Of a stretch of 64,000 nt of DNA, positions 489 through 45,066 are shown in pieces. The stretch lies in the NCBI GenBank assembly GCA_030062745.1, contig CP099839.1, positions 14,864,044 through 14,928,043 on the forward strand. The letters run 5' to 3'. Every line of letters starts with the position of its first letter. Positions within the stretch are counted from its first letter, which is position 1. Below the pieces are notes generated by a model, which saw only the letters and a list, made by a program, of their open reading frames with translations, was not told the DNA's origin and made no database searches. The position numbers were made by a program, and so were the translations under genes. Origin of the DNA: Capitulum mitella (taxonomy: Eukaryota > Arthropoda > Thecostraca > Pollicipedomorpha > Pollicipedidae).

Positions 489-564
489 CGCCTCAGAAAA
501 CCTGCTAAAGTCAACTAGTCTAGCTACACACTAAGCCCGCAAGAAGGGGACTTCCTGACATGAT

Positions 565-1897: not shown

Positions 1898-1899
1898 AC

Positions 1900-5100: not shown

Positions 5101-5127
5101 GGGGGGGCCGCCGTGGCCGTGCCGTAC

Positions 5128-8100: not shown

Positions 8101-11100
8101 TCAGTCACCGTCCGTCGGTCCGCCACCTCCCGACTGACCGCTGTCTATGATCCAGGCGGCCTGGTATTCGGACATGCCCCGCGGCACCTTCTTCTTGCGC
8201 GCCACCCGGTTCAGCGTCTCGGCGTCGCGCAGCGCGTCGTCGTCCGGCCACGCGTCGTCGCCGTCCATCTCGTCGTCGGGCACGTTCTCCGACTGCAGCG
8301 ACTCCTGCCGGCCACCGCGACAACATCGAACACGGCAGGCAGGGGCGGCCGGAGCCCTCTCGCCCGTCCGGCGCGAAACAAGGCGTCCCGGGCTCTGCGG
8401 AGCGCGGCCGGCGAGGCCGGGCGGCTCACCTGCGTGGCCGGCTCGGCGCGGCTCAGCACCGTCTCCTCGGCGTCGGCCATGGCCTGGTCGCTGCCGCCGG
8501 CTTTACGCGCCGCCAGCGGGTGCGGGTCGGCCGGCGCCGTGATCTCCGACATCTGGAAGTCGCCCCAGCCGCAGACGTGCACCAGCCGGCTGGCCGAGAG
8601 CGACCGCCGACCGCGCAGGTACCCGGACACCGTCAGCGAGCCGTACCCCGCCTGCCGGCGTCACGGAACACAGGTCAGAGCGGCACATACCGTCCGCCGG
8701 CATCAAAGAACACCGGTCAGAGCGGAACACACCGTCCACGGGCGTCACGGAACACCGGTCGGAGCGGAACACACCGTCCACAGGCGTCACGGAACACCGG
8801 CCAGGGCGGAACACACCGTCCGCGGGCGTCACGGAACACCAGTCAGGGCGGAATACACCGTCCGCGAGCGTCACAGAACACCGGTGAGAACAAACGCTTT
8901 GCCCAAAGCAAAGCAGATGCGTGTAACGTCACCTGCCACTGAAAATGCAGATCGCAAGTACTTCACGCCTACCGAGAAGTGCCAACGTCACGCTGAACGC
9001 CGCCCCGAGTGACAGCAGAGTTAGAAGCCGACACAAGCCCTCTACACACGAACCGCAATGACGGACCGCGGAGGTGACACGGGGGGGGGGGGACAGCGGT
9101 CCGCCATTTGAGGGGGCTCTCACCTGGTCCGGGTCTGGGGTGAACTCGAGCCGCTCTGCCAGCAGATGCGGCCGCCGCTCCCTGAACGTGATGGGACGCA
9201 GTTTGCCGTTAACCACATGGTGGAGCAGGGGCGCCACGTCGGCTGGCGACGACAGCACGTGGAGCCGGCCGTCGCGGCCGCTGAACCACCGCTCCAGCTG
9301 CTTCTGGATCTGCTTCTTGGCCTCACTCTGACGCTGAACGAAGGGGGACCAGGTCAATTCGGGGCAATTGGCTCGCTGGTGCACTCGCGAGCCGCCAGAC
9401 GATTGTAATGGCAACTTCCTAACTAAACGGTCTGATGATCTTAAAGCATCGGAAAGCCAAGGAACGGCGACAGGACGCATAACGTACAACGCGTACGTGT
9501 ATTTTACGGCACAATACACGTACTGAATCGTGATCTGACAAGATCTCCCTTCGTCCAGCGAGTTCGTTTTGCCGGGACGACAGACACCACCACCATCGCA
9601 CCGGGCGAACCAGCGATGACGTCTGCGGGGGGTGGAGCGTGTGTCGGCCGCCTACCTTGGGCGGGACCTGGTCCAGTCCGAGCACGGCCTGCACGCTCGA
9701 GGACACGCCGTGCGCGAACACGGCCGACAGCAGGCGCGCGCCGGTCTCGTCCGCGCCGTCGGCGCCCAGCAAGAAGAGCACGCAGTCGGCCACCTTGGCC
9801 GCGTCCAGCGCCGCGTACAGGTCGCCGCCGGCCGGCGCCAGCAGGGCCAGCCGCCGCCGCAGCCGCGGCACGCTGTCGGAGCGGCGACCGAAACGGACGG
9901 TCAGAGCGGCCCCGGCCACGCCAACAGCAGAAACAGCGGGGGGAGGGGGCAGAAAATCCACCTCAACCACGTCACCGGTCTGGAATTATGTTGTACTAAA
10001 CAGGTAACCAACATCGTTTCAAAAACCTACACGTTTTAAAATAACAACAATAATAAGAAACTACATACATCTCGTCATACACACCTAAACCACAAACCAT
10101 GTTCCCAATCGAAACTAACTAAGCAATGACGGCCGATGCAACCATCTCCAACTCCTCCTCCCAACTGACACGGGTCCCTGTGAGGACTGGTGACCGTCAG
10201 CTCCTCCCCTCACCTGACGTGGGTGACGCCCTGCGGTGACCTGGTGACTGTCAGGTCCTCCCCTCACCTGACGTGGGTGACGCCCTGCGGTGACCTGGTG
10301 ACCATCAGCTCCTCCCCTCACCTGATGTGGGTGACGCCCTGCGGTGACCTGGTGACTGTCAGCTCCTCCCCTCACCTGATGTGGTGACACCCTGCGGTGA
10401 CCTGGTGACTGTCAGGTCCTCCCCTCACCTGATGTGGGTGACGCCCTGCGGTGACCTGGTGACTGTCAGGTCCTCCCCTCACCTGATGTGGGTGACACCC
10501 TGCGGTGACCTGGTGACCGTCAGCTCCTCCCCTCACCTGACGTGGGTGACGCCCTGCGGTGACCTGGTGACCGTCAGCTCTACCACACCTGATGTGGGTG
10601 GCACCCTGCGGTGACCTGGTGACCGTCAGCTCCTCCCCTCACCTGATGTGGGTGACACCCTGCGGTGACCTGGTGACTGTCAGCTCCTCCCCTCACCTGA
10701 TGTGGGTGACACCCTGCGGTGACCTGGTGACTGTCAGCTCCGAGTCGGCGGTCGTTAGCAGCGACAGCACGTGATCGGCGCGCGCGCTCTCGTGCAGCGA
10801 GATGAGCGCCACCAGAAAAGGCGGCGTGCTCGCCGTGCCCAGCGCGCGCCGCCGGGCCAGCGCCTCCTGACGTTTGTTGGCGCGAAGCTGGCGCGCCAAC
10901 AGTCGCCGCTCGTGCCGCTTTTGGTCATGCTGTTTGCGGCGCGTCAATGCCTTCAACTGCACCTTGCCTGTACGCAAACACGTTGTTTACTAACTGAGGC
11001 TTACGGGCGCACCAACTGCCTTTAATTATACGGCGTCCATGTGCGCACACAGGAATGGCACACGAACCATCAGGAAGGATGCAACGTCATCTGCCACACC

Positions 11101-13044
11101 AACTTTGCTACATGAAAGTGGTGTAAGCACAATCAGCTGCCTGAAGATGTTGCCATCAAGGAAGTCGCAGCCCACTGCATAAACAGTGGAGCTCTGGACT
11201 TGTCAGGAGCCTGGCTCACTGCAAGAAAACTCGCTTCTACCATTTTAAACATTAAACGTTAGTTCTACGGGGGACGGTACCGCTATGTAGAGGCACTTCA
11301 CTCGTGGCGCGTGTAACCTGATTACGGCAGTTGGTGGGTACGTAAATGTGTAAATCGCGGAAAGCGGGCAGTTAAACTGGCCCGGTGACCCCCACAGGTG
11401 TGCAGCTCGGGGCAGTCGGCCGCCGCGAGTGCCCCGGCAACGCAAGGTTAAAATGGGCGGGTACAAGTTAAACGGCGACTTCCATGACAGGGGGCCATTT
11501 GCGTACTACATCAGTTGTTGACGTAGTTACCCAGCCCCCCCCCCCATGTAACCAAACGGATGTAAAACTGTACGCTTCCAATCTCTTCGCAAAAGTTGGT
11601 AAACATGGCGTCCAAGTTCCTTCAAACTTTCAGCACGTCTTTAGAAATCGTGCAACTGTCACACGTGCATGTTTTCTTGGCAACTCAGTCTGGGTTACTG
11701 AGTTAACCTGACAAACTGCACGTTATTTCTGCTTTTAATAACAGTCTATGGTAAGGATGCATTCAAGACAAAACTTCCAGAACGGACGGTGGAACGGCAG
11801 ACGTCTGGACGCCATCAGCAACTATACGACAAACTAAACAGGGATCGCATTTCTGACCGACTGTGTAGCTCAGACAGGGGTCCCACGACGTGAGCCGGGC
11901 GGCACGGGGAGGGGACGGGGACGGGGACGGGGACGGGGGACGGGGACGGGAGCGGCGAGAACCTCGTGAGCTGGAACTGAAGCGCCTTCCAGCGCGCACT
12001 TCAGTAGTTAGCCGTCCGGCGGAGAAGCCGCGGGGAGCGAAATGACGGCTCCACAGACATGACGGCAGAAGATCAGCCACAAGGACAGGATTCTGCAGTT
12101 AGATGTCATTAAGTCTTACGCTGAGGTTTATCAAGGCAAGAACACGATGAGACAAACGCAAACCAAAGAAAAGAGGCACGGGAAAAGGTCCAGGGAACTT
12201 TCAATCCAATCGCGGAAATCAAAACACCAAACAAATCTGTCTCGAATGACAACGAGGAAAGACGATTACATAGCTCGACGGAAGAAGATGAAAACTTGAG
12301 GAAAAACCCATCGAACACATCGAAACCCTAACACAAAAGGATGACACAAGATGGCGCACATTCACATACCGGCCTGCCTCCCCCCACTCCTCCAACACCA
12401 TTACAAGGTCACCTGTGAGTGGCAATGCTGTTTTGTTACCTAGCTTGGTGCACAGTTTTCGCCTCTGAATGGCGTTGACTTTTCATCTTTGCTCGCTGTG
12501 GCCCGGCGGCGGCGTGGGGGCGGCGTGAGGGCGGCGTCGGAGGACCGCGAGTGGAAGCGTTAGGGAGCGAGCAGGGCTTCGAGCTGTGCTGCCAAGGGAC
12601 GAGGACGCCGGACGTCCGGAGAACACGAGAGACGTCTGAGTGTGACTGTGTGTACCACTATGCAAGCATCCACAAACCTGTCAAGTGTGTAATACCACAA
12701 AACCTGAAAGTCTGCTAAAAAAGAAGCAACATTGGATGCCTGTTACTGTTTTCACCAATAAGCTGACAACGACCTGATTTATTATACATAAACATATATT
12801 GACAAGTTACAATATGCACCAAATGCCTGCTGCCGGTGCACAGAAGTCACCAGCAAAGCATACATTTGACAAAGTCTCTAACTGCAGTGTGTCAATCAGC
12901 CTCCCTAAAACGTCGTCCTGGACAAAAAGTGCCAACCTATCACATACCTTTGGTGATGCTGTCCAGGGACCGGTTACTCTTGTGCCTGCCAGTTTTGTGC
13001 TGCTTGTTTTGCTGTTTTAGACTGGATGCCCGATGGGAATGCAT
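5128..13044 (-). CDS. TSR1: TSR1 pre-rRNA-processing protein, 3' end missing
   Basis: TSR1 is a BMS1-related factor that accompanies late pre-40S ribosomal subunits. Ten coding exons join in phase (minus strand): 12948-13044, 10697-10967, 9656-9872, 9124-9333, 8430-8651, 8139-8304, 7562-7783, 6328-6545, 5828-6088 and 5128-5238, giving 665 codons. Exon 1 carries the basic N-terminus (KQQNKQHKTGRHKSN). Exon 3 has the inactive GTPase-like part (DAAKVADCVLFLL), exons 4-5 the AARP2CN region, exon 7 a highly acidic stretch, and exons 8-10 the conserved C-terminal domain (FPDEVDTPKDVPARVRFQKY, LLAHEQKMSVVN, FSQHTNGDKHK). The start exon is preceded by a good acceptor at 13065-13067, so a 5' UTR exon lies further right. 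The last ~140 residues of the family, including the GTHGHMK block, were not found downstream of 5127; the gene is partial here. Confidence 0.9.
8661..8892. repeat. 42 bp minisatellite next to TSR1 exon 5 acceptor
   Basis: Six copies with period 42 start at 8661, 8703, 8745, 8787, 8829 and 8871, each with a GGAACACCGGTC-like core. In transcript direction the array ends only about 10 bases before the acceptor of exon 5 (exon start 8651). The multiple-of-three period keeps long spurious frames open. Confidence 0.9.
10189..10742. repeat. 54 bp minisatellite carrying the TSR1 exon 2 donor
   Basis: On the minus strand each unit contains the last bases of exon 2 (GTGTCACCCACATCAG) followed by the donor GTGAGG. 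Donor copies lie at 10694, 10640, 10586, 10534, 10480, 10426, 10373, 10319, 10265 and 10211; the first is the true exon border. Continuing past it gives AGG TGA, so any more distal donor adds an in-frame stop. Confidence 0.95.
11905..11960 (+). repeat. (GGGGAC)n G-rich tract
   Basis: A run of hexamers GGGGAC with a few interruptions lies in the first intron of TSR1. Four or more spaced G4 tracts make a G-quadruplex on the plus strand plausible. Confidence 0.8.
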
Positions 13045-13609
13045 CATTTACTTCCTGGGGTTTCCTGAAAATATTAATAAGTTCTCCTGTATTCATCGGT
13101 CCCAGTGCCTTGTAAATGGCAATGCATGACCCTTCAATAATTGGCACATTTCAACTCTTGACAAGAACTACTTGGCTCACTACAAAGCAGTCCATGTAAA
13201 ACAAGTTCTGATGTGATGAAAACAATTCCAATCATATGGATGTACCCAGCTAGGGTAGCATTGTCTCTCAGGAGAACTAGGAAAGAAAAGAGGGAGAAAA
13301 ATCGCCAGTTTACCACAGCAGCAACTGGAGGAGCAGGACCTAGTCACATGGTAAAGTTAAGCTACGTAGGGCTTGCTATAGCTTACATCACATAGTACGT
13401 TACATTAGGTCAAATTACACCAGATAACATTATGATACAACTATGTAATCTACAGCTGTAGAAAAACAATACATTAAGTTTTAAGCAACCAGAGAAGGTG
13501 CAGTACTAAACTGGAGACATCTTGCTTGGAAACGTGGTAGCCTAGTCCGGCACCAGGCAGCCCTCATTCAACAAGGAAAAGCGCACTTTGGCCAAGCAAA
13601 CCAGAGGTT

Positions 13610-14230
13610 AGTAAACTATGAGGGGCATCCAGCTGGAGCAGGTTCAAAAATGGGATCTGGGGGTGCACGTGGACAAAGAACTGCAGTTCCACAGACATGC
13701 AGCTGCTACAGTGTCCAAGGCATCCCAGATCCTGCTGGTTATTTGACAGTCATTGATGCTTTTCCATCGCAAAAGCATGTCTGTCCTTAAAACTCTAGTC
13801 CGTCCCCACCCTGGATATGCTAATACCATTAGGGGGCCATTCAACTGTGCCGACCAGAAGCTGGTGACGTGTTCTGAGGCACAAGACCAAGATGGTGCAA
13901 AACATCGGGGCAATGTCACACCCTGAAAGGCTCCATACCCTCGGTCTGCTATCCCTACACTATCGCTTGCGATAGGGTGGCATGATCAGCATCTACATGA
14001 CCTTACACTTAGCTGACCTTCGCCCAGAAAAATTCTTCTCGCCAGCTACGACTTCTACGAATGGCTGCCCCTGGAAGCTCGGGCCTCTAGCAGATAAGAA
14101 GGAATGACTTAGGCATGAGGGTGGTGAACACCTGGAATGCTCTTATGCACAGAGTCGTTGCCTGCAGAACACTTCACCAATTTAAGTCTGGGCTCGACTC
14201 GCACTGGGCACATCTCATGTACATCATTCT
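13610..14230 (+). mobile_element. Non-LTR retrotransposon C-terminal relic
   Basis: The broken reading frame contains a WDLGVHVDKELQFHRHAAAT segment and later a block reading NTWNAL followed by LHQFKSGLDSHW. This pair is the usual end of CR1-like reverse transcriptase proteins. Stops and frameshifts are present, and no endonuclease or intact catalytic part is visible. Confidence 0.75.
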
Positions 14231-14635
14231 AGACCAAGACTGACATAGTTTAATGAGTCAGGAGCTCGACAGAGGGTCCTACAGGCCAAACGGGATCCTA
14301 AACACGGTTCAATGTAAGGTAAGGCATGGTCATGTGATACACACAGTGTGACCGTCTCATGTTTTGTGGACTGGATCCTTCTGCTGCACTGAAACCTTCT
14401 TTGTCCTTCTCTGCCTCCACTCTGAGCAAATCCATAGATCAATACATGCCACACTTCCAAACATAAACAGGGAAGTAGGTGAGGCTTGCCATCCATATTT
14501 ATTACACTGGTGTACTGTTTTTGTAAAGAGGAATTACACCTTATCTCACCTTACCTACAGCTGTTGGGAATTTCGAAAGTCACTAGGCTTAATGGTGTCG
14601 CTCACGTCAGCTCAGCACACAGCACAAGCATTTCT

Positions 14636-15690
14636 CCTAATGTGTGATGTCATACATGCGCTGTGCCCAATGCCAGTCCAGTCTGGATTTGAATGTTGTG
14701 ACTGCATCAGCAATCACCACATTGGCTGACAGGGAATTCCAGTCACTGATGACTTGATGACACTAAATGTCTTCTGATGAGGGGTTGTGCCAGGGCTTGT
14801 GTACCTTCCACTGGTGACCTCTAGTGACATCACAAACAGGAGAAAAGAAATCCTCCACACCAAGTGACATGCCACCATGATGGACCTGGAAGACAGCCAT
14901 GATATCTCCCTTTTAATGTCTGTAGTAGAGTAGGGAGGGCAGCTCAAGTGCCTGGAGCCTTTCCATGTATGGCACAAGCCTCAACTCCACCAGCCTCATA
15001 GCCTGCCTCTGCATTCTCTCCATGCATTTCTGGTCCATCTTGCCAAATGGGCCCCAGATCAGGTTTCCATACTCCAAAAATGGCCCAACTAAGACCTTGT
15101 ACAGCAATGGAAGAGTAAAGAGATCAAAGTTTGCAAACAATCAACAGACCACTGCCAGCATCTGGATGCCTTAGCCACTGCTGTTGTTGTTTGGTCATGG
15201 AGCCTGAGTCTGCTGTCCATCATAACTCCTACATCTTTTTCAGGCTCAGTGGCATGGATGTCCTTGCCATTCAGCAAGATGGTTTGCTGGGCATTTCCAA
15301 GACCAATGTACATTATCTTGCACTTTGACAAATTCGGTGATAAAAGCCAGCACTCAGAGCACCATGCCAGAGCATCACGATCTCCTTACAGCACGGATCC
15401 ACCCAGAGGTCTCTGAACATGGCTGTATAACTTTGTGTCAGTATCATTGGCAAAGAGCCTTGACGGAACCTTGTACGGATTGGGGAATGTCATTAACAAA
15501 GATATTGAACAGAGTTTGTTCCAAAATAGATCCCTGGGGATGATCGGGGAATAATGAACACGATAATGAACTGAGCTGGTCCCAAAATAGATCTCTCAGG
15601 GATGACACTGGCCACTTGAGTCCAATCTGACATGCAGCCATGTACAACCATGCTGCTGTAAGCCAGTTGAGTGCTTTTATGAGCATTATA
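14636..15690 (-). mobile_element. Non-LTR retrotransposon C-terminal relic
   Basis: On the minus strand the pieces run in family order: FVNDIPQSVQGSV (about 15.45 kb), then EKDVGVMMDSRLRLHD (15.25 kb), then LVGPFLEYGNLIWGPF with MERMQRQAMRLVELR (15.05 kb), and finally DWNSLSANVV with TTFKSRLDWHW (14.7 kb). Frameshifts separate them. It is related to, but not a close copy of, the plus-strand relic at 13.6-14.2 kb. Confidence 0.8.
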
Positions 15691-16345
15691 TATCTCCCCA
15701 GGGGAACAACATGGAATAGGACCAAGGAAGAGAGACTTCAATGGGACAGGGACAAAGAGTAGATTGGGAAGAGGCCAGGAGGAGAAGCAGAAAGGTGGAA
15801 CATAGGTCAGGGGGTAGAAGCAAATACAGACTGAAACAGGACTGGCACAATGATGGGACAATGGATGACACCATTAACCTGGCAATGACTGGGGTATTTC
15901 ATCAACTTCCACAGACAGAGGGGGGCTTTACCATCCCAGCCCTGTTTATCTCAGAAACCAACTGCAAGATCTGGCTCATTCAAACAGCAACTGATAGCCC
16001 CATCCTCTTACTCATCCCTGTCCCAACCCCATCCCCATGTCACTTTCCCTTTTCACCACTCTGTTCTAATACCTTTCCATGACTGTTTGTTGAGTCCTCA
16101 TCTCTCCCACCCTCATTCAGGTCCTCCATATCTCTGTACTGTCCAGTATCCTTGTCTGTCCCTATCCCTTCCCAGGCACTCATGTCTGTCTTTGTTCAGT
16201 TCTGTCTTGTTACAGAACTGCCTCAACAAGTCTTGTTCCAGAACTTCCTCAGCTTCTTTCAAATTCTGAGATGGCCACATTTTGATGGGTCTTTCAGTGA
16301 TGTCATATTGTCAGTACTTAAAAGCTGGTACTGATCTGTCTTGTA
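15690..16345 (+). repeat. Unnamed interspersed repeat, copy A
   Basis: This segment is homologous to 48,250-48,770 in the same orientation and to 47,600-48,250 in reverse. Shared blocks include TGGAATAGGACC, GACTGAAACAGGACTGGCAC and TGGCTCATTCAAACA. It is pyrimidine-rich in its second half. No coding potential or terminal repeats are evident. Confidence 0.75.
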
Positions 16346-16859: not shown

Positions 16860-17250
16860 CTGGGGCTGGGTAATCCTTTAGAAGCGCGCGCCATAAACCA
16901 AGCACACTGGATGACACATATACGGCGTGCGTGGCAAAAGGAGACGTCAGCTGTTGCGAGAAACAACAACATTATGCACTGGAGCTCAGGGCCGTGGATC
17001 ACCTACTATTCGCTAACCTAACCTAACCTAACCTAACCTAACCTAACCTAGCCTAACCTAACCCAACCTAACCTAACCTACTGTGTAAAACAAGAGCGAA
17101 TAATAGGTGATCTACGACCCTGGAGCTCCAGTGCATAATGTTGTTATTTCTTGCAACAGCTGATGTCTCCTTTTGCCACGCACGCCGTATATGTGTCATC
17201 CAGTGTGCTTGGTTTATGGCGTGCGCTTCTAAAGGATTGCCCTGGGGCTG
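16860..17250. mobile_element. Foldback element with telomere-repeat core, copy 1
   Basis: Two inverted arms of about 150 bp begin GGTAATCCTTTAGAAGCGC on the left and end with its complement (GCGCTTCTAAAGGATTGCC) on the right. Between them is about 65 bp of (CCTAA)n, at about 17,018-17,085. The element itself spans 16,869-17,241 and is flanked by the 9 bp direct repeat CTGGGGCTG. It has no open frame of its own. The long arms and 9 bp duplication recall Mutator-like foldback elements, but the superfamily is not proven. Confidence 0.9.
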
Positions 17251-17399
17251 TGCAGGGCAGCAGAATTAGACTAACACATTTTCAAGCTTCTATGAACCCT
17301 CAACAAGAAACAAGTGCTAAGATATGACCAGACATTTCATGTCACATTTCCAAGAAGTAGGCCAGGGTTCTCCCTTTTCCCTTTTTCCCTCTTCTCCTA

Positions 17400-19220: not shown

Positions 19221-19223
19221 AAC

Positions 19224-26928
<7,705 letters not shown>

Positions 26929-27119
26929 GCCGCGCACCAACCTCACCGACCTGATCGTCCTCGACAAGTGAGCCGCGCGCCACCGTCGCCGACCTGACCG
27001 TCCTCGATAAGTGAGCCGCGCGCCACCCTCACCGACCCCGACAACTGAGCCGCGCACCAACCTCGCCCTGACCTGATCGTCCTCGGCAGTTGAGCCGCGC
27101 GCTGACCTCACCGACCTGA

Positions 27120-29366
27120 TCGTCCCGCCGCCGGCACCTCAGCACGCCGCGCGGCACTGCTGAGCCGATCGGCCTCGGCGTGGCCTGGAGTCCGGCCACG
27201 GTCTGGCGTGACCTGCTTCAGGACTCGGCGCCCGGCCACGGCAGTTTGGTGCCCTGGGTCAGGAGGAACGGGTGCCCGGTCTGGTTCCCCGGATCAGGAG
27301 GACCGGTCGCCGGGTCTGGTCCCCTGGATCAGGATCGGGCGCCCTGAAACCACCTGGCCGTCGTGGACAGGTGTGAGTGAACGATGAACAATGATGAGAG
27401 AATGAACGACCCACCAAATCAGGTATCCGATTGTTGGGACAAGTGAAGGAGACAGCGACGCCACTGTCACCACCATGAACGGAAGTCACCAGCGTGCTTG
27501 CTTTCGTATACGTGGACGATGTGTGTGCGCGGACATCCTGGACCGCCTGTTAGTCGTCCGGGCACCATCGCCACAAGTCATCGCGTCCGCGGTCATTCAG
27601 CGCGTGGCGTTTTGTTTTACTCAAGTCCGGTGGTAGGTCGCACTCACTCGTGTTAACATACCGGCAAGCGGCTGCCTCCTCTCGCCCGTTGAATGGTAGG
27701 CGGGCGGGCGGCGCGGCCGGCGCCGGCGGAGGCCTGGTGTTGCGTGCTGACGAGGCGGACTGGCACCGGCGGCCCGGCGGTGGCCGGCGGTCGACGTCAC
27801 AGGGAGGGGCGGTGCCGGCGCCCGACTGGCCGGCAGTCGGCGCCGAGTTTTCTGTTCGCAAGTCGGCCTGCCACAGCAGGAGACATGGCAGCGTCCATTG
27901 AGTTCAGTCTCCAGTCCGGTGATTACGAGTGTGTTGTGTTTGTTTGGTGTTGTGTAGGTCATGAATGGCCTGGATTGACGGGCTTCCTCCGGAGGTTATA
28001 CCGCTTGTGGTGGTCTTTCGGATAAGAATGTCCTGGAACTGTTCCCGGCGAATCTCGGAATGCGGAAAGAACGTCAAAGGACAAAATTTAACATCGTCGC
28101 AGCTATGAGGTGGTTGTTATTTGCGACCTGTCAGGGTTTTTTCGAAAGTTTGCGTGGCGATCGCGAAAACTGCATACATTTTCCAATTTTAATCCAATCC
28201 GAGCAGGCATCTGAGCGGAATTCCTCCTCGTGGTTACAACGACGTCTGGCCATCGAGCGACGACGGACACCCGATGTGCGTTCGGAGTGTGGGTGCTAGT
28301 GTGGCGGACGCTGCGCCGCGCCGTGTGCCCCAGGCGCTGGCGCGCGTGACGTCCGAGCGGTGTGAGCGGGGCCGATGTGTGCGTGTCTAGTCAGTAGGCG
28401 GAGGGCCCACCCAGCGAGCGGCGGCGGACTCGCCCGACCGCGGCGGCGCCCACCGCGTGAATGGAATGTTTCTATACAGTATTGAGTGGAGTCGATGGCG
28501 TTTTCCTGCAGCTGGTGGTGCAAGCGATTCGTGGCATATTCGGGGGCCGTCTGGAGGCTTTGAATGGAAAGGAGGTGGTACGAAGATATTTCAGAATCCG
28601 AAGCTGGCTAAAGCAGTTTAACGAACAAAAGAGCCGCTAGCGAATTACAAATGATAGGATAAATGAAATCAGGCATTGAACTATTCTGGCTTCCAATCAC
28701 CAGCAGTTCTCGTCTTGCTGCATAAACGGTTCTCCACACTTTTCGGTTGGCAGTTTCTGCGCACAGGCGAGTATAAACGTGCAATGACCTTGCCGGTCGA
28801 TTTTTTTTTTACTCAAAACTACGACAGTGGCTGGGTGGGGGGGGGGGGGCTCTGCCTGGATGCACTTTTAACAGCTGTATGTCATAAACGTATGGCATTC
28901 GCGCTATGGAGAAGTGTTTGGAGCATGTATACCGACGAAGACAGTTGGTGTGAACGTATTTCGCGAAGTACCCCTTTCCTAAATTTCACAACGGAATCCA
29001 AATCCGTCCTTATCCAAACCAGTTTCTGCTGTGACGCTTTTCAATGCATCCATACATTCCATCCTACCATGGTGGTTCATCTTTTTTGGAAATAAATTAT
29101 ACGATAATCGTCCATCGAAGCATCAAGTCATCCGCTGTTTCATATTTCACACGAACTCCCTGCCACAAGACACATCCGGCGTTCTCAAAAGTACGGCCGT
29201 AAAGCACGGCAAACAAGCATCCATCGCACCATCACCACCAGTCGATCACGAACCGCGGCTACCGGGGCACCACCGTCCCGAATCGTCCCGCAACGGCTCT
29301 CCAGGCGCGCCTACCACAGTCGCCCGGTCACCGACTCTGCCACCGTCCGGCGGCCCACCGACGCCG
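27120..29366. other. Convergent intergenic region MKLN1/NDUFAF3
   Basis: The region contains about three copies of a ~35 bp unit at 27,244-27,345 (GGATCAGGA with CCGGTCTGGT blocks). Otherwise I see GC-rich sequence to about 28.4 kb, then AT-richer sequence with short homopolymers near 28,800 and 28,840. No coding exon is recognised. The 3' UTRs of both neighbours must lie here. Confidence 0.5.
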
Positions 29367-32258
29367 CTACGACTCGAGCAGCTCCCTGCGCTCGGCCTTC
29401 TCCAGCTGCTCGCGCTCGCGGTCCACCAGACGCACCTTGACCGGCGGGAGGAGCGCGCCGGCCACGCAGCGCCGCTCCAGGTTCATGAAGTTGAACGTGG
29501 CGCTGGCCTGCTCCGTCGGCAGGATCTCGAAGCCGATCCGCTTCTGGCGCAGGAAGGCGATGACGTCCTTGCTGACGGTGGTGCCGCGATCGCCTGTGGC
29601 CGGGGCAGGACCGAGCTGAGCGGCACGGGACGGTGAGCGGGCAGCCGCCGTCCGCGCTCTGGCGGGCTGCTGTTTAGCGAAAGACGCACAGCGGGCTGGC
29701 AGTAACATGGCCAGCAATAGACGGTTGACACATAGATAAGATCTACTTAACAACACCATTATGAAAGCTTGACGAAATCATTGCAAGTAACTTATTGTAG
29801 TCTTACTGGTGATGTACCGGAACAATGCGTTAGCGTACGCTTCTTTGACAATGACGCCGAAGACCCGCCAGCAGCCACTGTCCGGGCCGATCAAACAATG
29901 CTCCATCCCGAGTCCACTGCAGTGGCCGGCCCCTCTCCTTACTGGCCAGTCCCGATGACAAGACAGCCCTTACTGACTAGCCCCAAAAACCAGACAGCCC
30001 TGAATAACCAGTACCGATGACCAGATAGCCCTGACTGACTAGCTCCGAAAACCAGACAGTCCCGACTTTAGTTGGAATTTTGTATTTTCTTCTTCGTGTC
30101 TGAATATCATCACTGTTACACAGCACAAAATTTTCAGGTAGATTAACACTGGACTAAGCTGGCATTCTTGGTGTAATTCAGTTGTTGCATCATACCTGTT
30201 TCTTACTGAATGGTGAAAGTCATTTGCTTGCTGAGTCAGACATTTGTTAGCATGGTTACTGCTTTTTGATGGATGCACAGGATCAATCCTTTGAAGTATA
30301 AAATGTGTTCTGGAGCACAGATTTTTTGGTGTTTTTCAACACTAGAACACAACACGTTTTCCGACCCTGGTCCCGACTGACCAGTTCCAATCACCAGACA
30401 GTCCAGCCGCGGCTCCAGGATGGCGAAGAGCGCCAGCGAGGCGGGCGTGATGTCGGCCGCCGACGCCACGTTCCAGCCGAGCACCGTGCGCGGGAACACA
30501 GCCATCGGTCCGATCACCACCACGCCCGTGTTCAGGTGGAACCCGTACTGCCGCCGCAGAGACGACACACCAGACTCAGACACTGACGGCGGGGAAGGGG
30601 GAGCCTGATACCAAGGCCACGTGCAAGCCACAAATATTGCGGCCGCAAATACGGGCCAAGGACAGACAGTGGAGAAGTGGGGGAGTCAACACTACGCTCA
30701 AGTTCAAGGCTATGTGGCCTTTTGATTAGCTTTCCTGCAATGTCCATCCATCAAAAGGTCACACTAAGAGCCTGATAAGAGGTGCCTAAGCATAAAAATC
30801 ATGTTTATGTGAATTGTCAATGTGGTTCACACCTGATATGGTTGAGGAAAAGAGCACACAGAACATGATGTGATAGAAACTTACTGATGGACAACTTTTG
30901 TCTATTGTCATACAATGACATATTCCAAAAGAAAACTGGCAACTTGTGTTAGATAAAACATGTGGCTGAAAAGGCCTACGATCATACATTGGTAACATAG
31001 ATGGACTGAAATATTAGGAATAAGCTACTCACTTGGCTGATTCCATCAACACTGATCATATCTCCCATCTCACGATTCAGAAGAGTAACTGTAGTTTTCT
31101 GGTCCTCATTGTGTTCTGAATGCAAGTATCTCCAAGCAGCCAGTACTGGTGGTGTGTTCTGGTAACAAGGTCTGATGAAGAATATAAGGGAGTCAAAATA
31201 GAAGCCATTTCCAACAAGGTGTGTTTACACATTTCTCTGATTCATTTGCTGTAATCAAATATCAGCAATGCCAGGATTCCACAGAGCAGACAAAATAATA
31301 GTAACTGAAATGTACTGATGCTGTTTAATAATGATAATACAAAAAACAAAACTGAATGGAAACAGCAGTTTGCTGTTTCATGTTATTATGATTGTATTTA
31401 TGTATGCACAGACATAATTTACAAAATAATTCAATGTTTTTCTGGCAACAATAAAGGCATGCCTTAGACACATTTGCTCACTGTTCCATACTAGCAGCCA
31501 ATTCAAACCAATTGCTAGAAGTCGTGAGAAGCTAATCTGTTAGAGCCTGTAAACAAAACATCTTTTAAAACAAAAGATCAAAACAATGTTTCTTTGATGC
31601 TAATATCCATGGGTACAACAACTAGGATAAGATTTGGGCAGGCCATCATAGCAGGGTGAGGAACCTGCCATTTTAGGAAACAAATTGCTTGAGCCAAAAT
31701 ATGCTTAATCTGAAATAAACTGTATCCACCAATCAAATGATGATGTTCAAACAAGATTCCAAACTTTGAGAGAGGTAAAAAAGAGGAGACATGGTAAAAC
31801 ATGCATGCTCCACCAGACCTTGCATCAGTGTCCATTTCACGGACTATTCAATATTTTCATTAATTTGGCATCTGAATATTACAAACTATACATGCTATGC
31901 CTGATTAGCATTTACAGTTTCCTATAAATCTGTTTTTTTATACATTATGCAATGATGGAGGCAGTAAATGTCATGATCATCGGCATTCTACTGACCGAGT
32001 GAATGAGAGAACATTATGCAATGATGAAGGCAGTAAATGTCATGACCATCGGCATTCTACTGACCGAGTGAATGAGAGAAAAATAAGGTCAGGATAGCAC
32101 TGGGGTGATGGCAAAACCTCAAGCAAAATGAATTACATAACTTACGGAAGACATTCCCTTTGTCCCTCATTCCTGAACATCTCACTGGCCATCTCCCAAA
32201 CTCACCTCTGATGTAGGACTCTCCGAGTTACATGCTGCACAGACCTTAAAAGGGACAT
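29367..32258 (-). CDS. NDUFAF3: NDUFAF3, complex I assembly factor
   Basis: NDUFAF3 works with NDUFAF4 in mitochondria during early assembly of respiratory complex I. Four exons join in phase to 194 residues (human 184): 32206-32258, 31033-31171, 30382-30547 and 29367-29593. Exon 1 encodes MSLLRSVQHVTRRVLHQ, an Arg-rich presequence without acidic residues, as expected for mitochondrial import. The Mth938-type domain follows: TVTLLNREMGDMISVDGISQ, VVVIGPMAVFPRTVLGWNV, FAILEPRLDCLVIGTGDR and ASATFNFMNLERRCVAGALL all align with the human protein. The C-terminal tail is longer and charged (EREQLEKAERRELLES). Exon 1 lies in a CpG-normal stretch that faces MYO19. Exons 1-2 are AT-richer than exons 3-4. 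Confidence 0.93.
29930..30420. repeat. Degenerate copies of the NDUFAF3 exon 3 donor, split by an insert
   Basis: The true border reads, on the plus strand, CCCGACTGACCAGTTCCAA then TCACCAGACAGTCC (30,373-30,406). Diverged copies with ACTGACTAG and CCAGACAG(T/C)CC follow at about 29,930-30,065. The two parts are separated by about 300 bp of AT-rich, CpG-poor DNA (30,066-30,365) that looks inserted into the array, since CAGTCCCGACT occurs on both sides. Confidence 0.7.
31944..32081. repeat. 69 bp tandem duplication in NDUFAF3 intron 1
   Basis: ATTATGCAATGATGGAGGCA through GAGTGAATGAGAGAA occurs twice at exact 69 bp spacing with very few differences, so the duplication is recent. Confidence 0.9.
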
Positions 32259-36642: not shown

Positions 36643-38700
36643 CCGCTACCTTCATGGGCGTTTGCTGCATTAATCGGGACGTACATCTGCATTGGTTCAA
36701 AGGGCTTGCTGTGCCTTGGAAGACGCCTTCTCCACTTTAATTGTAATTGTCGGCGAAAGAAGTGTACGGTGTGTGTGAGCCCTACGCACTCGTAATGTGT
36801 AAGCTTTGTGTTACGTTCACGCTGATACGGCGTGATTCAGATGCCTCGTGATGGGGCATTTCGCCTCCCATTTGACCTCCGCCGACCACGAGTTGGTGCT
36901 GCGTCCCGCTCATTTCCTTGCTGATGGCAGGCCTGGCTGTATTAATTTGATTAGGATGATCAGTGGATCATCAGTGCCACTGTGGCACTGGTGGGGGCAC
37001 TGACGACCAGTGGATCAGATGACCGGTGCCGACCTTCACAGTATGTTACTGTTGGCGTTATCTGTGCTTGGTGCTACGGGTGAGTAAGGCTTGCTTCAAC
37101 GCAGTTAATCTGTGGCGACCTGAGCTGACGGTTGAGCAAGGTACGCACTGATTCCAGATTGTGTGACGCTGTTTCGCTATGTGACAGTCCAAAACTAGCG
37201 TGCTCGTGCAATGTGATTTTAGCGTGCTGTCGCACGAGAAGGTTGTGGTGGGCTGGGTACCTGTCTCGCATTGTGCAATTTACCGCTGGTTCATGGTATA
37301 ATAAAGTGGCATTAGCCGGTAGGTAACATCAACGTCGTCAGTTGGTCGGAAATACGTGGCACAGACGCCTGACGATCACGTGACAGCACCTGCGGCGCCC
37401 GTCACTTGAGCGGCTTATCAAATGTATCGCAGCGTTCTGTGTAGCAATGAAAAACATGTTCGACACGTATTACGTATCACGTAAAAACACGTATCAAAAC
37501 ACGTTCAGCACCGTTCTTCACTCCCTGACCCAACCTCAGTTCTTCACTTGTCGCACATAGAAGAGAAATAGCAACTGGTACCATAAATACTCCTAAGTTC
37601 CCGCCATCGCCGCACCTACAGTTCATTTCCTGTATACGACACCCGTACATTCCAGGCCAAGCTTAAGACGCGTGATCGAGAGCAGAAAACTTCCCAGTTC
37701 GAGAAATTCGCGTAAACGAGACGAAAATGAGAACTCATTGCAGTGCACCGCGAAAAAGTTGACAAAATCGCCCAGCCACTGCGTTAGCACCTTGAGGATA
37801 TTGTCAGGAAGAACCACGTGTATTCAACGTACTTTCAAAGACGTGGGCGAGGGAGGCACTGACAGGGGGCTTACAATGGACGCATTGGGAAAGCAAGGCT
37901 TGGACACCGAAAAATACATTCTTATACTGTTAAAATATTGTGGAAATGGAAATTGAGCGTGTATCGCTACAACACGTTATTAACTCACCCTAAATGACCT
38001 GCAAACGCTAAGAGCACGAAACAATTCAAAAATGTAATACGTTAAAGCCCGCGCAGCCATGAACTGCGACACATATATACCGAGCAGACGTCCCCCCCCC
38101 CCACCCACCCGTTACAAACCAGTGCAATATCGCCGCAAAGTTACACCGTATAATTGGTTTGAGCCATGCCATCCGCCACGCCATCATGCCATCGCTTAAT
38201 CTATCAAATGGTACAACGATCTCAGAAAATATCGATGAACATATAGCAATAGCGCGACAATGCATACAAAGTAATATGGGACAAAACCTAACGTAATTTG
38301 TCTGTTGGGAACCGAAATACAAGACAGCTAACTCTCGTTCACAATGATTTGCCACAGTGCTCTTTCTAGACATATATGCAAAACATACAGACCGATGCCG
38401 TCCGACCACAGGGATACGTTCATAAAAAGGCAGCGACCAGGCAGTACAAAATAACCCGGTGCGTACTGTAATCACCGGAACACCCGTCGCACGCCTTTGA
38501 GCAGGCCACCCGCCGGTGAGTGGCCTTCTGCGCGCTCTGTGTAAGGCACCGTTCACCGACCGCAGACGCGCTCTGGTGCTGCGGCCGGTCAGGTCGGCTC
38601 AGATTTCAGCTGGGCGGGCCACGGCCGGCCGGAACGTCGGCACACGCCCGGCCGCCCGCACACCCGCAGTCTGGACGGCAGCGACGGCGACATCGGTCTC
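36643..38700. other. Convergent intergenic region MYO19/PPM1H
   Basis: No coding exon is recognised. An AATAAA at 37,300-37,305 is the first such signal downstream of MYO19 and could serve its 3' end. A C-run at 38,092-38,102 and otherwise unique-looking sequence fill the rest. Confidence 0.45.
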
Positions 38701-38715
38701 GAGATGCCCTCTGAG

Positions 38716-39255
38716 CTAGCTCCCGGCCGGAGACGGGGAGTCTGCGAGGCTGGGGAGGAACGAGGCAGGGACAGACGGCCCCACCGGCTCCGACCAGGCA
38801 GGGGGAATCTGAGGCAGTGTGGTCTGACTTGACGTGGGAACCTGGTCTACAACTACGGCCACAGCTGGACCGGACGTGACAGGCGCGGTCTGACCCGAGG
38901 CGGAGACGCTCTGGCTCGGCCGCGGATCGCCGGTCCGTTCTGGGTCGGCAGCAGGGGCAGCCGGACCAGACGGCGAACTGGAGACCGTCCCCGCCGGACC
39001 GGGAGGGACCGCCTGCCCGGCCGCGGGGCGGACCGCCTGACGAGACGGCGGCTGATGGTCCGGCGTCCCCGGCACGCCGTTCACCGTCGTCACGGGAGCC
39101 GCCTCCGGTCCGGCCGGGACTTCTCCGTGCGGGGGACCCAGGTGTCCGTTCAGCACGGGGCCCGGGACGACGGCCGGCTGTTCCGACACACCGTTCACCG
39201 CGGCAAGCACGGCTGGGGACGGCCGCTCGTTCTCCGCCTGTGAACGCACGTTCAT
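38716..39255 (-). other. Pro/Ser/Val-rich open frame, possible extra exon
   Basis: This is a 179-codon open frame just downstream of the PPM1H stop. It has internal near-repeats (AVNGVSE, TVNGVPG, VLNGHLG) and many Pro, Ser, Ala and Thr residues, more protein-like than most chance frames here. An acceptor-like TTCACAG lies just inside it (about 39,240). I found no good donor in PPM1H exon 8 that would join it, so it may be an alternative terminal exon, an unrelated gene part or a chance GC-rich frame. Confidence 0.3.
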
Positions 39256-39286
39256 CGAGTCACCAACAGCCGTCCTCTGTCGGCAA

Positions 39287-42200
39287 TCACACTACATCGG
39301 CGCGGTTTAAGCATATGTGCTGTGGAAATCGTCCCACTCTGCCGCGTAAAACACGGAGTGAACGTGCCTTCCACAGCAGGTGCTCCTCCCTGTAGGCCAG
39401 CAGCGGGATGACAAAAACGCTGATGTCGTCCACGGTGGCCGGGGCGCCGTCGGCCATACGCCAGTGTCGGTCCTGCAGCTTACCGCGTGCCGCCATCACC
39501 AGCTCCTGAGCGGCCGACGTACACCTGAAAGGACAAACAGGACCAGTCAGTCAAAATCACATGGTGTCAGACTTTCGAGGCGTTCCCATCGACTGCCGTC
39601 GCCGCTGTCGAAAAGACTCGTTTCTTTCCCGTGCGTCCACTGACGCCCCAATATCGAGTCATTTGCTCTGCAGCTCCGACTCACAAATTTAAGTTCGTTT
39701 CACTCGACACAAAATGAGATGAACTTCGCTCCGGCACTATCTACGAGAGGTGCAATGTTTATAGTTCTACGCGGATCCGACAAGACCGACAGTACCTGTA
39801 TCTCTTCATGGTCTCGTCCTCGACTGGGAACTGGCTGAGCGCACGCTCCACCAGTTCAGCCACCCTCTGGTTGCAGGTGACGTCCCAAAGGCCGTCGGTG
39901 GCCATCACCAGGACGTCTGATGCCGTTACCTGGTCCTCCTCCAGGTCAATCACCAACACCTGACACAGGGACCATCATCAGAACAGAGTCATCTGATTAC
40001 CCTCCAGATCCCAGATCAACACCTGACACAGGGACCATCATCAGAACAGAGTCACCTGATTACCTTCCAGATCCCAAATCAACACCTGACACAGGGACCA
40101 TCATCAGAACAGAGTCACCTGATTACCTTCCAGATCCCAGATCAACACCTGACACAGGGACCATCTTCAGAACAGAGTCACCTGATTACCTTCCAGATCC
40201 CAAATCAACACGACACAGGGACCATCATCAGAACAGCGCTGATACCTTCACATCCCAGATCAACACCTGACACAGGGACCATCATCAGAACAGAGTCACC
40301 TGATTACCTTCCAGATCCCAGATCAACACCTGACACAGGGACCATCATCAGAACAGAGTCACCTGATTACCTTCCAGATCCCAGATCAACACCTGATACA
40401 GGGACCGTCATCAGAACAGAGTCACCTGATTACATTCTAGATCCCAGATCAACACCTGACACAGGGGCCATCATCAGAACAGAGTCACCTGATTACCTTC
40501 CAGATCCCAAATCAACACCTGACACAGGGACCATCATCAGAACAGTGTCGGCTGATTACCTTTCAGATCCCAGATCAACAACTGACACAGGGACCGTCAT
40601 TAGAACAGAGTCACCTGATTACCTTCCAGATCCCAGATCAACACCTGACACAGGGACCATCATCAGAACAGAGTCACGTGATTACCTCCTAGATCCCAGA
40701 TCAACACCTGACATATGGACCCTCATCAGAACAGAGTCGCCTGATCTTCATCAGCCAATTATATCAATACCTGGCACGAGGACCATCATAGCAACTACAT
40801 CTAATCACATTCCACACCCAGTATCAAAGAATGAACAGCGTTCATCTCCAGTACAGCATGACGAATCCCTCTCCCGAGCAGCCACCAGCAGATGAACGGG
40901 GGAAAAGCAAATCAGCTGACAAAACAACACAGGCCATCCTCATATATGTCCACATTGAAGACACATCGCGCAATAAGGGAAACATTCGACGACAGAACGC
41001 AAACGGAACAAGACAACCCACCACAAAGTGTAGACCATAGGGTGTACAAATCCTTAGTCATTTTCTGAAGACGCAATGGATTTCGTGAAGAGAACGCAAA
41101 AACAAGTCCCGATAAACCTTGCGCATGCAAAAGCAAAGCACCAATTGCGTCTGGCACTGCCGGCCAGCTGCGGCGGGCCACAGCGTGCGCGCCTACCTCG
41201 GGCTGCGACAGCAGGAACGGCTTGACGAGCACGTTGGTGTTCTGGGCGCGCAGGCCGTGGTCGCCGAAGCCGCGGGTCACGCCGATCGTGGCGCACACCC
41301 GACTCTGCCGACAGGGCCACCGCCAGCCGTCACACGGGCCACGGCCAGCCGTCACACGGGCCACCCCCCGCCGTCACACGGGCCACCCCCAGCCGTCACA
41401 CGGGGCACCGCCAGCCGTCACAAGGGCCACCACCAGCCGTCACAAGGGCCATCGCCAGCTGTCACAAGGGCCAACGCCAATCGTCACAAGGGCCACCCTC
41501 AGCCGTCACACGACGACTCGGGCACGGGGAGAGGCACCATAGCAGATGGTAGTCTGCCACAGTGCAGATGGAACATCTGCTCCGTTAGCTCTCAACGTAG
41601 CAGATGAAACATCGCACAGCTGGCCGCGGTGAACTCAGCAATTCATCACCCAGCACAGCAATCTTCCAACACAAACGAATCGCCGCAAGCCACCGTCAAA
41701 TATCCCGACACGATTACCCTAAAGGAAAGCAGTAGTCTAACAGTTCTTACTGATCAGTTTTTGGAGAGCATTAACCACAATCGAAGCTATCGCATCGAAG
41801 CCATCGCATCACAATCCCAATCGAGTCACGTTACGCCTCCAAAACCTGCTCTGACCGCACAGGCCCGGCTCAAGGGATAAGGAGCGCCCTGCTGTTCAGC
41901 CACACGGCACACTGACCCGCTTCCCCTCGCCGCACACCACCGGGAACTTGACGTCCTCCTCGGTAACGGTCTTGTAGGCCCAGCCGGTCATGTGGGCGTC
42001 TCGGTAGAGCAGCCTCTTGCCGAGGTCGCGCCGGCTGACGCGGCGACAGAAGTCCAGGTGGGTGAACTCGCCGCCCAGCAGCGCCGGCTGTCGGCTGGCC
42101 TGCAGAGGACCGGACATCGGCCGTCACGGCCGAGCACCGCCGTCACGTGACGTGCTCTGATTGTGGTCAGAATACGCGTCTGCCCTGACCACAGGCTGCC

Positions 42201-45066
42201 TTCACGAGCACACAGCAATGAGCCATTCAACAGCCAACAAAGGCTAACTAGAGCTTGGTCAGTGGTCATGTACAGTAGTGTAATACGAAGGTCATTCCAC
42301 TTTTCATTCGGGTAAAGGAAAACAGCTCCGCGACAGGCTGTCCAGCAGCTACAATGCTCCATACTATTATCAATGAGCTTTTGCATGTGCTGCCTCTCTA
42401 TCTGTTGTTACTCAGGTCCATGAAAAAACAAGTTAACATCACAGCATTAACAAAATTCTACATTTTGTGGCTGACGACGTCGTGTCCCGGCACAAATTGA
42501 GTTTTTCCGGACAAAACGAGAAATAACATAGATTTGCTACATATATCGCAATTTTCTGGAAAACGACAGTTGGCCGGAATTAAGCATAACTGTGAAGATG
42601 GTTGTTTGAAATTATTAAACAGATGTCAAGGACGACGCTGGCTGGTGGCCAATGACTGGCTGGCTGGGTGGTTACCACCACTGACCAGCTGGGTGGTACC
42701 CATCATTCAGACCCCGTTACCACCATTGACCGGCTGTGGCCCCGTCACTCGGACCCAGTTACCGCCACTGACCAGCTGCCGGACGCGCTGCCGCTCCGTC
42801 TCGGGCGTGAAGTCGTGCGACGCGACGATGGCGCGGCCGCGGCGGCAGACGATGGCGCGCGAGTCGCCCGCGTTCGCCACGTACAGTCGCCCCAGCAGGA
42901 AGAGCGCGACCAGTGCCGTACAGCCGCCGCGCATGTCGTACTTGCGCCGGTCCTCCGCTATCAGCGCGTCCTGACGAGAACGGGACAACGACCGGAACGT
43001 GACAGACAAACACCCGACACCAAACATACGACTCAGGATGGAAAATGTGGCGAACCGATGGTGAAAAATACAGCACTCATGTATTGCTGGTTGTTAGAAT
43101 TCGGTTTATCAAACCACATGATTAGTACTTCATTAAACAACGTCATAATTTTACACAATGCCTCATAATGTTAAGAAGTGAGAAGAGCACCTGTGCGTGA
43201 AGAAAACGAGACTTCACTGAAAATGGCTTTGTATGATTCAGCCTCAACAAAAAGCCAGTCCTCAACAATTGTGTTCAGATTCTCGGCGGTCCGCGCGGTA
43301 CCGCTGATGCACCAGACGAGGCACGGGTGAGCTTCCCGCCGGCAGCGGCGGCAACAGCACGACCGCCCCGTGGCCGTCCCACTGACCATGTCATTGAAGG
43401 CCGCCTCCAGGGCGCCGGTAACCAGCTTGTTGACAGAGAGCTCGTCGGAGGGGATCCAGAGGAAGGCGGGCCGGCTGCGGTCCGTCTCCGTCGGCTCCGG
43501 CGGCAGCAGATGGTCGATCACGTCCACCAGCTTCTCCTGCAGCAGTCGGACGTCGCGTCGTCGGCTGGCCGCATGGTGACGGAGGGACGGGACAGGACCG
43601 GTCACAAGAACGACGACCCAGGGACGGGACAGGACCGGTCACAAGAACGACGACCCAGGGACGGGACAGGACCGGTCACAAGAACGACGACCCGGGGACG
43701 GGACAGGACCGGTCACAAGAACGACGACCCGGGGACGGGACAGGACAAATCACAAGAACAACCTGGGGAAGGGACAGGGCCAGTCACAAGAACGGCTCCG
43801 ACAGGGCAGAACAAAGCAGACCATAAAGATGGCCACACAGAGACAGGACAAAGCTGGTCACAAGCACGGCGACACTGTGACAGGGTGTCGACGGTCACAA
43901 AAACAATGGCTACCATTCTTTTGTCTTGTGGGCAGGATGGGGTAAAACAGCGACATATACAAGGGGAGCACCAGTCACAATGAAAGACAGTCCTGCAGAC
44001 AGCTCACCAATGGCCACTAACTGCACAACAGGAGCTGAGTCATGCACAACACTAATGACACAAGCTAGGCATGAGGCATCCTGATTCTGACAAACATGGA
44101 CCACAACCAGTCATAATCAGTGGCAGCTTACTGGATCACCATCATGCTCCCAGAAAACCCCTTCAAGCCATGCCATGTTCCTCAATCTGAACTGCAGCCT
44201 GCCTTGGGCTGTCAGTGTCTTACATGGACAATGTGATGCAGCTGGTTGGCAGCGGCTGTGGCGGCACCGTGGCCAGCGTGACCGTCGAACATTCCAAAGT
44301 AGTAGTACCGGACGCCGCGACCTGCTGGCTGGTCACCTGCACCGGCTGCCTCCCCTGGTCTAGTGCTGGTCTGGTGCAGCATGCCCACATGGATGCATGC
44401 ATTGTCTTCATTCCGCTTGCTCTTTCCAGCATTGACAGCCCTAGGGCATATTTGGTGACCTGACATTACCGTCCAAAAAGTGATGCAATTCTACCTACTT
44501 TGTGGTGAGAACATTAATGAGTGATGTTCATGTCAAAAAACATAGGATCTTATAATGGCTGGGTTTCACCTTTCTACATTTTAAGCCATAGCACGCAGTC
44601 AAATCCCTTACGCATCAGAAGTGTATGTGATGTATTTCAGATGCAAGATTCACTCAAGTATATGATGCACGATATTCGTAGAAAGGTAACAAAAAAACTG
44701 GCAACATCTAGTCACTGTTAAACAGTAATCATGTCACTAACCACTCCATAATACCACCTCTATCACTAACCCTTTTGCAATAAAGAAGATCTTAAGAATC
44801 AGAACTGATTCAATCTGACAGTACACTCACTCAGCATAGCCTGACATCCAGGGCATTCTGCTGACATCCCGTGGCACCATGATGGGCCGTATGGTGCGGT
44901 CGCCAGCCACCTGAGCCTCATCCTCAGAAGTCAGGTGCAGAAACTGAGGACGGCTATATGGAAACTTTGGGGCTCGATGCTCTGAGAGCTCCCTCAGATT
45001 TGAAGTCTGTCCATCATCCCAGCTTCCAACAGCACTGTAGATGGCTGATTTGAACTTGTTCAACAT
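39287..45066 (-). CDS. PPM1H: PPM1H-type protein phosphatase (PP2C family)
   Basis: This is a metal-dependent Ser/Thr phosphatase of the PPM1H/J/M group; vertebrate PPM1H dephosphorylates Rab GTPases. Eight exons join in phase to 497 residues (human PPM1H 514): 44831-45066, 44224-44440, 43387-43536, 42773-42970, 41917-42099, 41197-41304, 39796-39959 and 39287-39524. Metal-binding and catalytic motifs are intact: RNED (about 88-91), FDGHAG (about 130-135), GGCTAL and YVANAGDSRA in exon 4, FTPETERQR, MTGWAYKT in exon 5, GVTRGFGDH in exon 6, ATDGLWD (about 384-390) and DDISVFVIPL near the end. The N-terminus MLNKFKSAIYS and the FPYSRPQFL motif match PPM1H best, but PPM1J or PPM1M orthology is not excluded. 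The start exon begins at an acceptor (exon start 45081), so a 5' UTR exon lies to the right. Confidence 0.92.
39959..40760. repeat. 63 bp minisatellite carrying the PPM1H exon 7 acceptor
   Basis: On the minus strand each unit contains CCCTGTGTCAG followed by GTGTTGATCTGGGATCTGGA, a diverged copy of the exon 7 start. About 13 junctions lie at 63 bp spacing from 39959 to 40707, with one shortened unit near 40,211. The copied frame reads VLIWDLEGNQVTLF then stop, against VLVIDLEEDQVT in the real exon. Confidence 0.95.
41308..41515. repeat. ~21 bp repeat beside the PPM1H exon 6 acceptor
   Basis: About nine copies of a unit like GCCAGCCGTCACACGGGCCAC begin a few bases upstream (in transcript sense) of the acceptor of exon 6 at 41305-41307. 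Confidence 0.9.
42660..42790. repeat. Three copies of the PPM1H exon 4 donor
   Basis: TTACC(A/G)CCA(C/T)TGACC(A/G)GCTG occurs at about 42,672, 42,718 and 42,759. On the minus strand each is CAGCTG (or CCGGTC-type variant) followed by GTCAGTGG or GTCAATGG. The 42,759 copy is the real border (exon end 42,773). Confidence 0.8.
43584..43770. repeat. 37 bp minisatellite upstream of PPM1H exon 3
   Basis: GGGACGGGACAGGACCGGTC plus ACAAGAACGACGACCCA recurs at exact 37 bp steps (43584, 43621, 43658, 43695, 43732), with diverged copies to about 43,800. It begins about 45 bp from the exon 3 acceptor. Confidence 0.9.

Follow-up and report, generated by a model that had tools for sequence, protein, structure and literature searches.

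The 64-kb window, by which we mean the whole stretch of DNA that was analysed, lies on contig C1 of the barnacle Capitulum mitella, within a genome of 477 Mb assembled in 16 contigs at 53% GC; a figure legend in PMC11331182 gives a chromosome number of 16 for the barnacles C. mitella and P. pollicipes. Three of its genes, MKLN1 (muskelin), PPM1H and TSR1, were modelled by hand and their exon borders then compared with the tandem arrays found by TRF, which returned 49 rows for the window. Aligned with PDB chains, the models reach E-values of 1.4e-191 (muskelin), 4.7e-93 (PPM1H) and 8.4e-38 (TSR1, query residues 27-218), and their splice sites, as checked, are GT and AG. Exons come from a predictor, rather than from hand-set models, for TSR1 from 8304 on, for a putative NDUFAF3, which owes its name to the first-pass annotation, and for a gene at 51-56 kb. 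One muskelin stretch of about 25 residues in the PDB chain has no exon that could be found in 21906-22827, between the exons ending at 21905 and starting at 22828. Among the 13 hand-set donors of MKLN1 and PPM1H, five carry C at intron position +3, which seems unusually frequent for an animal.

Repetition in this region takes several forms. Interstitial (CTAAC)n arrays, presumably of the arthropod telomere type, lie at 17013-17080 and 45640-45692 (TRF), and a 311-bp unit, longer than those of the other arrays, stands in two copies of 99% identity at 49804-50422 (TRF). Some 1.15 kb at 62841-63992, including a terminal 47-bp array, recurs 3.4 kb further on (in L027) at 89% identity, and there overlaps an 18-copy array of a 49-bp unit. 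On the largest scale, a direct tandem duplication of 11.2 kb (window 1-7440, L025:4458-10000, L026:1-5689; 98.1% identity) has one copy running from 3.8 kb ahead of the window's first base to position 7440, with the other just upstream across a 502-bp spacer. The 3' part of TSR1 lies within it and is thus present twice, and one of the duplicates may be a retained haplotype.

The first-pass annotation had drawn attention to seven minisatellites, in four genes, whose units copy a splice junction together with adjacent exon bases. Six of these, identified by TRF, do span their hand-set border. In TSR1 (minus strand) the array at 10187..10741, about 10 copies of a 54-bp unit, holds 45 bp of exon around the true donor after 10697 and keeps GT in all 10 copies found; this donor is supported by reading frame and splice signal, because the PDB alignment begins at the first residue after it. 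In MKLN1 (plus strand) three borders are spanned: an acceptor with exon start at 23922 (array 23486..23939, 58-bp unit, 18 bp of exon inside, AG kept in 7 of 8 copies found), a donor after 24554 (24528..24727, 61-bp unit, 27 bp of exon, GT in 3 of 3 copies found) and the acceptor of the last exon at 26655 (26537..26685, 37-bp unit, 31 bp of exon, AG in 4 of 4 copies found), where the true site outscores every copy. PPM1H (minus strand) contributes an acceptor-spanning array at 39954..40745, with 12.7 copies of a 63-bp unit at exon start 39959, and a donor-spanning one at 42671..42778, with a 42-bp unit at the donor after 42773. By TRF the former includes 6 bp of exon, with a decayed exon copy extending further (P=0.026) and AG kept in 13 of 14 copies found; the latter likewise includes 6 bp of exon and keeps GT in 3 of 3. 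Of the five array-bearing borders in MKLN1 and PPM1H, four are crossed by an ungapped PDB alignment; at the acceptor 23922 the alignment has a gap of two residues. The seventh array, in NDUFAF3 (29937..30067, minus strand, 31-bp unit; TRF, predictor exons), touches no border and instead lies 315 bp from the donor junction 30382 that it resembles. The resemblance is close, with 27 of 33 aligned bases identical over 23 exonic and 10 intronic positions, and only 3 of 3,474 control 51-mers score as high (P=0.0009), so that the copying of this junction was borne out and its placement was not.

Other arrays stop short of a border. That all of them are hidden border copies was rejected by the exon-copy test: in MKLN1 the array at 20932..21107 (plus strand, 88-bp unit, 39 bp from acceptor 21147) yielded no exon copy (P=0.84), nor did the PPM1H array at 43583..43794 (minus strand, 37-bp unit, 18 bp from acceptor 43564; P=0.67), and the values were P=0.11 for PPM1H 41314..41512 (minus strand, 22-bp unit, 9 bp from acceptor 41304) and P=0.056 for 51768..51895 (plus strand), which lies in an intron 28 bp upstream of the predicted acceptor 51924 of an RNA-binding gene that we take to be hnRNP M-like. 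Exon copying is favoured for the displaced NDUFAF3 array and for the TSR1 array at 8657..8889 (minus strand, 42-bp unit), which ends 5 bp from the exon start at 8651 and contains a faint exon copy (P=0.005). The earlier description of the abutting arrays as not visibly copying the exon agrees with these values at the two PPM1H acceptors and gives way at TSR1 8651. A further array in MKLN1, at 26885..27125 (plus strand, 43-bp unit), covers the coding end and 3' UTR, repeating about 14 last codons across the stop at 26926-26928; the predicted protein end aligns to the muskelin C terminus of the PDB chain. It has the same form as the border arrays, and a splice site need not be involved in its making.

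Arrays of this anatomy extend beyond the window. We surveyed 280 kb of additional sequence (20 stretches of 10 kb drawn at random, 40 kb on the flanks of the window and a further 40 kb next to two of the random stretches) with a self-trained exon predictor, which placed 127 borders there; the random stretches, tried as a dense source of genes, had to be given up as such, only 9 of 20 holding a predicted gene scoring above 25, while 200 random kb held 71 arrays of period 15-200. Spanning arrays occur at 6 of the 127 predicted borders (about 5%, CI 1.8-10%). A predicted gene that begins with ankyrin repeats (Pfam) has two of them, one copying about 50 exonic bases at a donor and one copying 7 at an acceptor; donors of an MgtE-type transporter and of an RTEL1-type helicase (both Pfam) each have 13 exonic bases copied, and the remaining two are acceptors, of a zinc-finger gene (Pfam; 37 bases) and of a predicted gene in L025 (42 bases). 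Unit length among the spanning arrays is 31-70 bp. It may be asked whether wrong gene models or assembly errors conjured up the pattern, given that borders were drawn from the DNA sequence, that the predictor was exact for only 12 of 19 hand-set exons and that the assembly contains at least one 11.2-kb duplicate of 98% identity. Such an origin is scarcely credible when the MKLN1 and PPM1H borders are backed by PDB alignments, all six outside cases were read by eye and the array units differ from one another.

What the copied splice sites do is a separate matter. In the six window arrays 40 of 42 close copies, true sites included, keep AG or GT, a count that comes from a search accepting close matches and missing badly decayed ones, and five of the six, MKLN1 26655 being the exception, have one copy or more that matches the true site in score. 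Such constancy could be read as a sign that duplicated sites are retained for their usefulness, as back-ups, as means of splicing regulation or as controls of intron length, and yet homogenisation among copies accounts for it without selection, the search passes over decayed copies, the array at 26655 contains nothing that reaches the true site's score, and use of other copies would mostly shift the reading frame, as 8 of the 12 spanning periods are not divisible by 3. We regard usefulness as a very unlikely explanation. Worked through by hand, reading through the TSR1 donor meets a TGA at the second codon, and an upstream copy of the MKLN1 acceptor 23922, if used, would meet a TGA before the next copy; at these two borders, therefore, only the exon-side site yields the conserved protein. 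Several units also carry AG|GT and could serve as acceptor and donor at once, as would suit a scheme of intron gain or boundary sliding in which the arrays are intermediates, an exonic copy becoming a new exon and the repeats between a new intron. The accessible parts of the amphioxus reports propose this for globins; here, however, the MKLN1 and PPM1H alignments contain no exon inserted from repeat copies, though a small two-residue gap does fall at MKLN1 23922, and as an account of these arrays the scheme seems quite improbable.

Coding frame bears on which arrays are found in exons. Of the 11 arrays lying wholly inside predicted exons, 9 have a period divisible by 3, while outside exons the proportion is 35 of 94 (Fisher P=0.006; arrays of period 15 or more, small numbers, both in-exon exceptions containing indels); spanning arrays are free of this constraint (4 of 12). 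Duplications thus occur in exons, at borders and in introns alike, and coding frame decides which of them survive in exons. The share of 30-mers with a copy within 1.5 kb is 0.00 deep in exons, 0.03-0.05 at the border and 0.09-0.14 from 40 bp on; at 110 borders outside the window no peak of near-copy coverage was found, only a smooth fall into exons, and at 66 window borders coverage rises likewise to 0.13-0.15 and then varies between 0.06 and 0.20. Both the smooth fall and the pattern of periods speak for one of the two readings first offered for these arrays, that selection tolerates them as long as the exon side retains the true site. Coverage counts expanded copies, and is thus by itself no measure of the seeding rate.

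Seeding was addressed by collapsing each array to one unit and placing it uniformly in its half-intron, for periods of 20-250 bp and arrays within 400 bp or half the intron and, outside the window, for exons scoring at least 6 in genes scoring at least 25. Under this uniform null the window, with 65 borders and 15 array-border pairs (NDUFAF3's array enters once for each of its two borders), has 6 spanning arrays against 2.34 expected (P=0.016) and 9 within 25 bp against 3.84 (P=0.004), P values that, like all those for the window, are biased because the window was chosen after its arrays had been noticed. Outside (127 borders, 19 arrays) the figures are 6 against 3.43 (P=0.091) and 9 against 5.36 (P=0.038), and over all borders 12 against 5.70, a ratio of 2.11 (CI 1.09-3.68). 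With a limit of 1000 bp instead of 400 bp, spanning counts are 6 against 3.51 outside and 6 against 2.24 inside the window. This procedure replaced an earlier intron-by-intron test (11 and 26 arrays; 6 spanning against 2.73 in the window, 3 against 3.09 outside), which had the TSR1 period as 215 bp rather than 54 bp and missed cases at broken gene chains.

A uniform null, however, takes no account of base composition. Array density per kb is 0.09 in 40% GC bins, 0.74 in 70% bins and 0.43 in a small 75% bin, and intron GC outside arrays is 0.70 over the 25 bp next to the exon and has dropped to 0.50 by 150-200 bp; as arrays are about eight times denser at 70% than at 40% GC, and intron GC is highest beside the exon, a GC-weighted null was used. 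Its rates were derived from 49 distant arrays and are uneven at the 50-55% bin, which has 1 array; close to a spanning array, its weights also take in the GC of that array's own unit. Spanning arrays then number 6 against 4.25 in the window (P=0.22), 6 against 4.83 outside (P=0.33; ratio 1.24, 95% CI 0.46-2.70) and 12 against 9.08 overall (P=0.15), with 18 against 13.33 within 25 bp of all borders (P=0.052). The intersection of arrays with borders, run on the window and the 280 kb, thus returns a uniform-null excess in the window and no clear GC-weighted one, and the initial impression that chance placement was unlikely survives against the uniform null in the very window where the arrays were noticed and fails outside it once GC is weighed. 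The apparent preference for borders probably stems from many short introns, units that are long relative to introns and the GC peak beside exons. Measured against absolute rates far from exons, by contrast, spanning arrays are 12 where 4.7 would be expected and flank arrays 34 where 22.1 would be, so that distant rates underpredict the arrays of gene flanks.

The other reading first offered was a replication or repair process that duplicates exon edges and then expands them, and in a wider form it would be a border-directed mutational process whose cause might be, for example, damage at splice sites linked to transcription or replication, or a sequence motif there. The uniform-null excesses and the words found in near-exon units, described below, lean towards it. 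Set against these are the want of a border peak in copy coverage, the spanning P value outside the window, which misses significance even under the uniform null, and the shrinkage of the excess there to 1.24-fold with GC weighting. On the GC-weighted results border-directed seeding is unnecessary, and we consider it unlikely; a modest border bias, up to 2.7-fold outside the window, may exist and is compatible with the interval around that ratio.

The strongest lead against plain slippage comes from short words within the units. Either TGAC or GTCA is present in 12 of 16 near-exon units in the window (6.4 expected, P=0.004) and in 13 of 20 outside it (7.4 expected, P=0.007), P values that are optimistic because the word was selected post hoc out of all words of 4 or 5 bases in the pooled set. 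Pooled over the window and L005-L032, in either orientation and with one array copy inside the 11.2-kb duplication dropped, the count is 25 of 36 against 13.8 expected, compared with 18 of 57 against 16.0 in distant arrays. TGAC is also frequent in near-exon arrays that span no junction (17 of 24 against 8.0), and this tells against its marking a process aimed at borders. CAGG and AGGG are nearly as enriched in near-exon units; for CAGG the pooled near-exon count is 27 of 37 against 14.6, with depletion in distant arrays (7 of 56 against 16.5), an enrichment due at least partly to the splice sites that spanning units contain. Splice words as a mark of all genic arrays were rejected on the counts of CAGGT, found in 7 of 12 spanning units (1.7 expected), 3 of 24 other near-exon units (2.1) and 2 of 57 distant ones (3.6). 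A proposal that would give the TGAC/GTCA enrichment a role, in which exon edges are preferentially seeded by two- to threefold in connection with a TGAC/GTCA-like word of genic repeats and about one border in twenty bears a mirage array, strikes us as unlikely.

The arrays are probably the outcome of random, slippage-type duplications, tolerated at borders since the splice site on the exon side is the one used. Slippage or unequal exchange would create tandem duplications of some 30-70 bp across the genome, with a preference for GC-rich DNA that the density of arrays attests. Now and then the first duplication would straddle a splice junction by chance, and the exon-side copy would stay in use under selection, a supposition for which three things argue: the protein alignments, the periods mostly not divisible by 3, and the stop codons into which other copies would lead. 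Later copies, which lie within the intron, would be spliced out, free to expand and presumably to homogenise together, while duplications inside exons would survive mainly if in frame, as the small numbers available indicate. The array across the MKLN1 stop codon counts in favour of chance duplication, as do the equal numbers of donors and acceptors hit and the amphioxus precedent described below; the uniform-null excess over all borders, the surplus within 25 bp that persists under GC weighting, the excess over distant rates and the near-exon words count against it.

Extrapolated to the whole genome, a border rate of about 5% would mean that the spliceosome meets a series of near-identical donors or acceptors at thousands of borders, a direct test of the proximity and exon-definition rules that guide it. 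The arrays also suggest that repeats of this kind are no lancelet oddity, and they provide a base rate for judging claims of border-directed mutation or intron gain. If exon-edge seeding were true, the genome would serve as a natural experiment, on a large scale, in the spliceosome's choice among many identical tandem splice sites.

Although the first-pass annotation knew of no named system of this kind, one has been described. The accessible parts of PMC3087553 and PMC3902484 report 'mirage' minisatellites in amphioxus, tandem repeats across intron-exon borders in the Adh3, globin (BflGb6/BflGb9), troponin C and PGBD5 genes, with normal mRNA splicing and units of 10-72 bp in Adh3, 60 and 108 bp in PGBD5 and 150-160 bp in the globins. 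Among the barnacle titles listed on minisatellites or on tandem repeats and introns, none has border-spanning repeats as its subject. As in amphioxus, the repeated unit crosses the intron-exon boundary and takes exon bases with it, which is the case for six arrays of the window and for those at 6 of the 127 predicted borders elsewhere. Borders of the 5' and 3' kind are alike affected, with three donors and three acceptors in each set, and the spanning units overlap in length with those of the mirages. Differences lie in the barnacle lineage, in the presence of several affected genes within one 64-kb window and in the estimated border frequency, and also in the nature of the evidence: splicing and copy-number instability are reported for amphioxus, whereas the arrays here are known from the DNA of one assembly. 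From the ordinary intronic minisatellites of the same genome, which share their unit size, GC richness, copy number and occurrence in introns and intergenic DNA, the border arrays differ only in having begun from a unit that lay across a splice junction. With intron gain by tandem duplication, as the Rogers model is outlined, they share a tandem duplication containing a proto-splice site, except that existing introns carry the copies here and no new intron is shown. Judged by their anatomy in the assembled DNA, the border-spanning arrays are mirage-type minisatellites; the kind is already known from lancelets, and what is new is the lineage and the estimate of its frequency.
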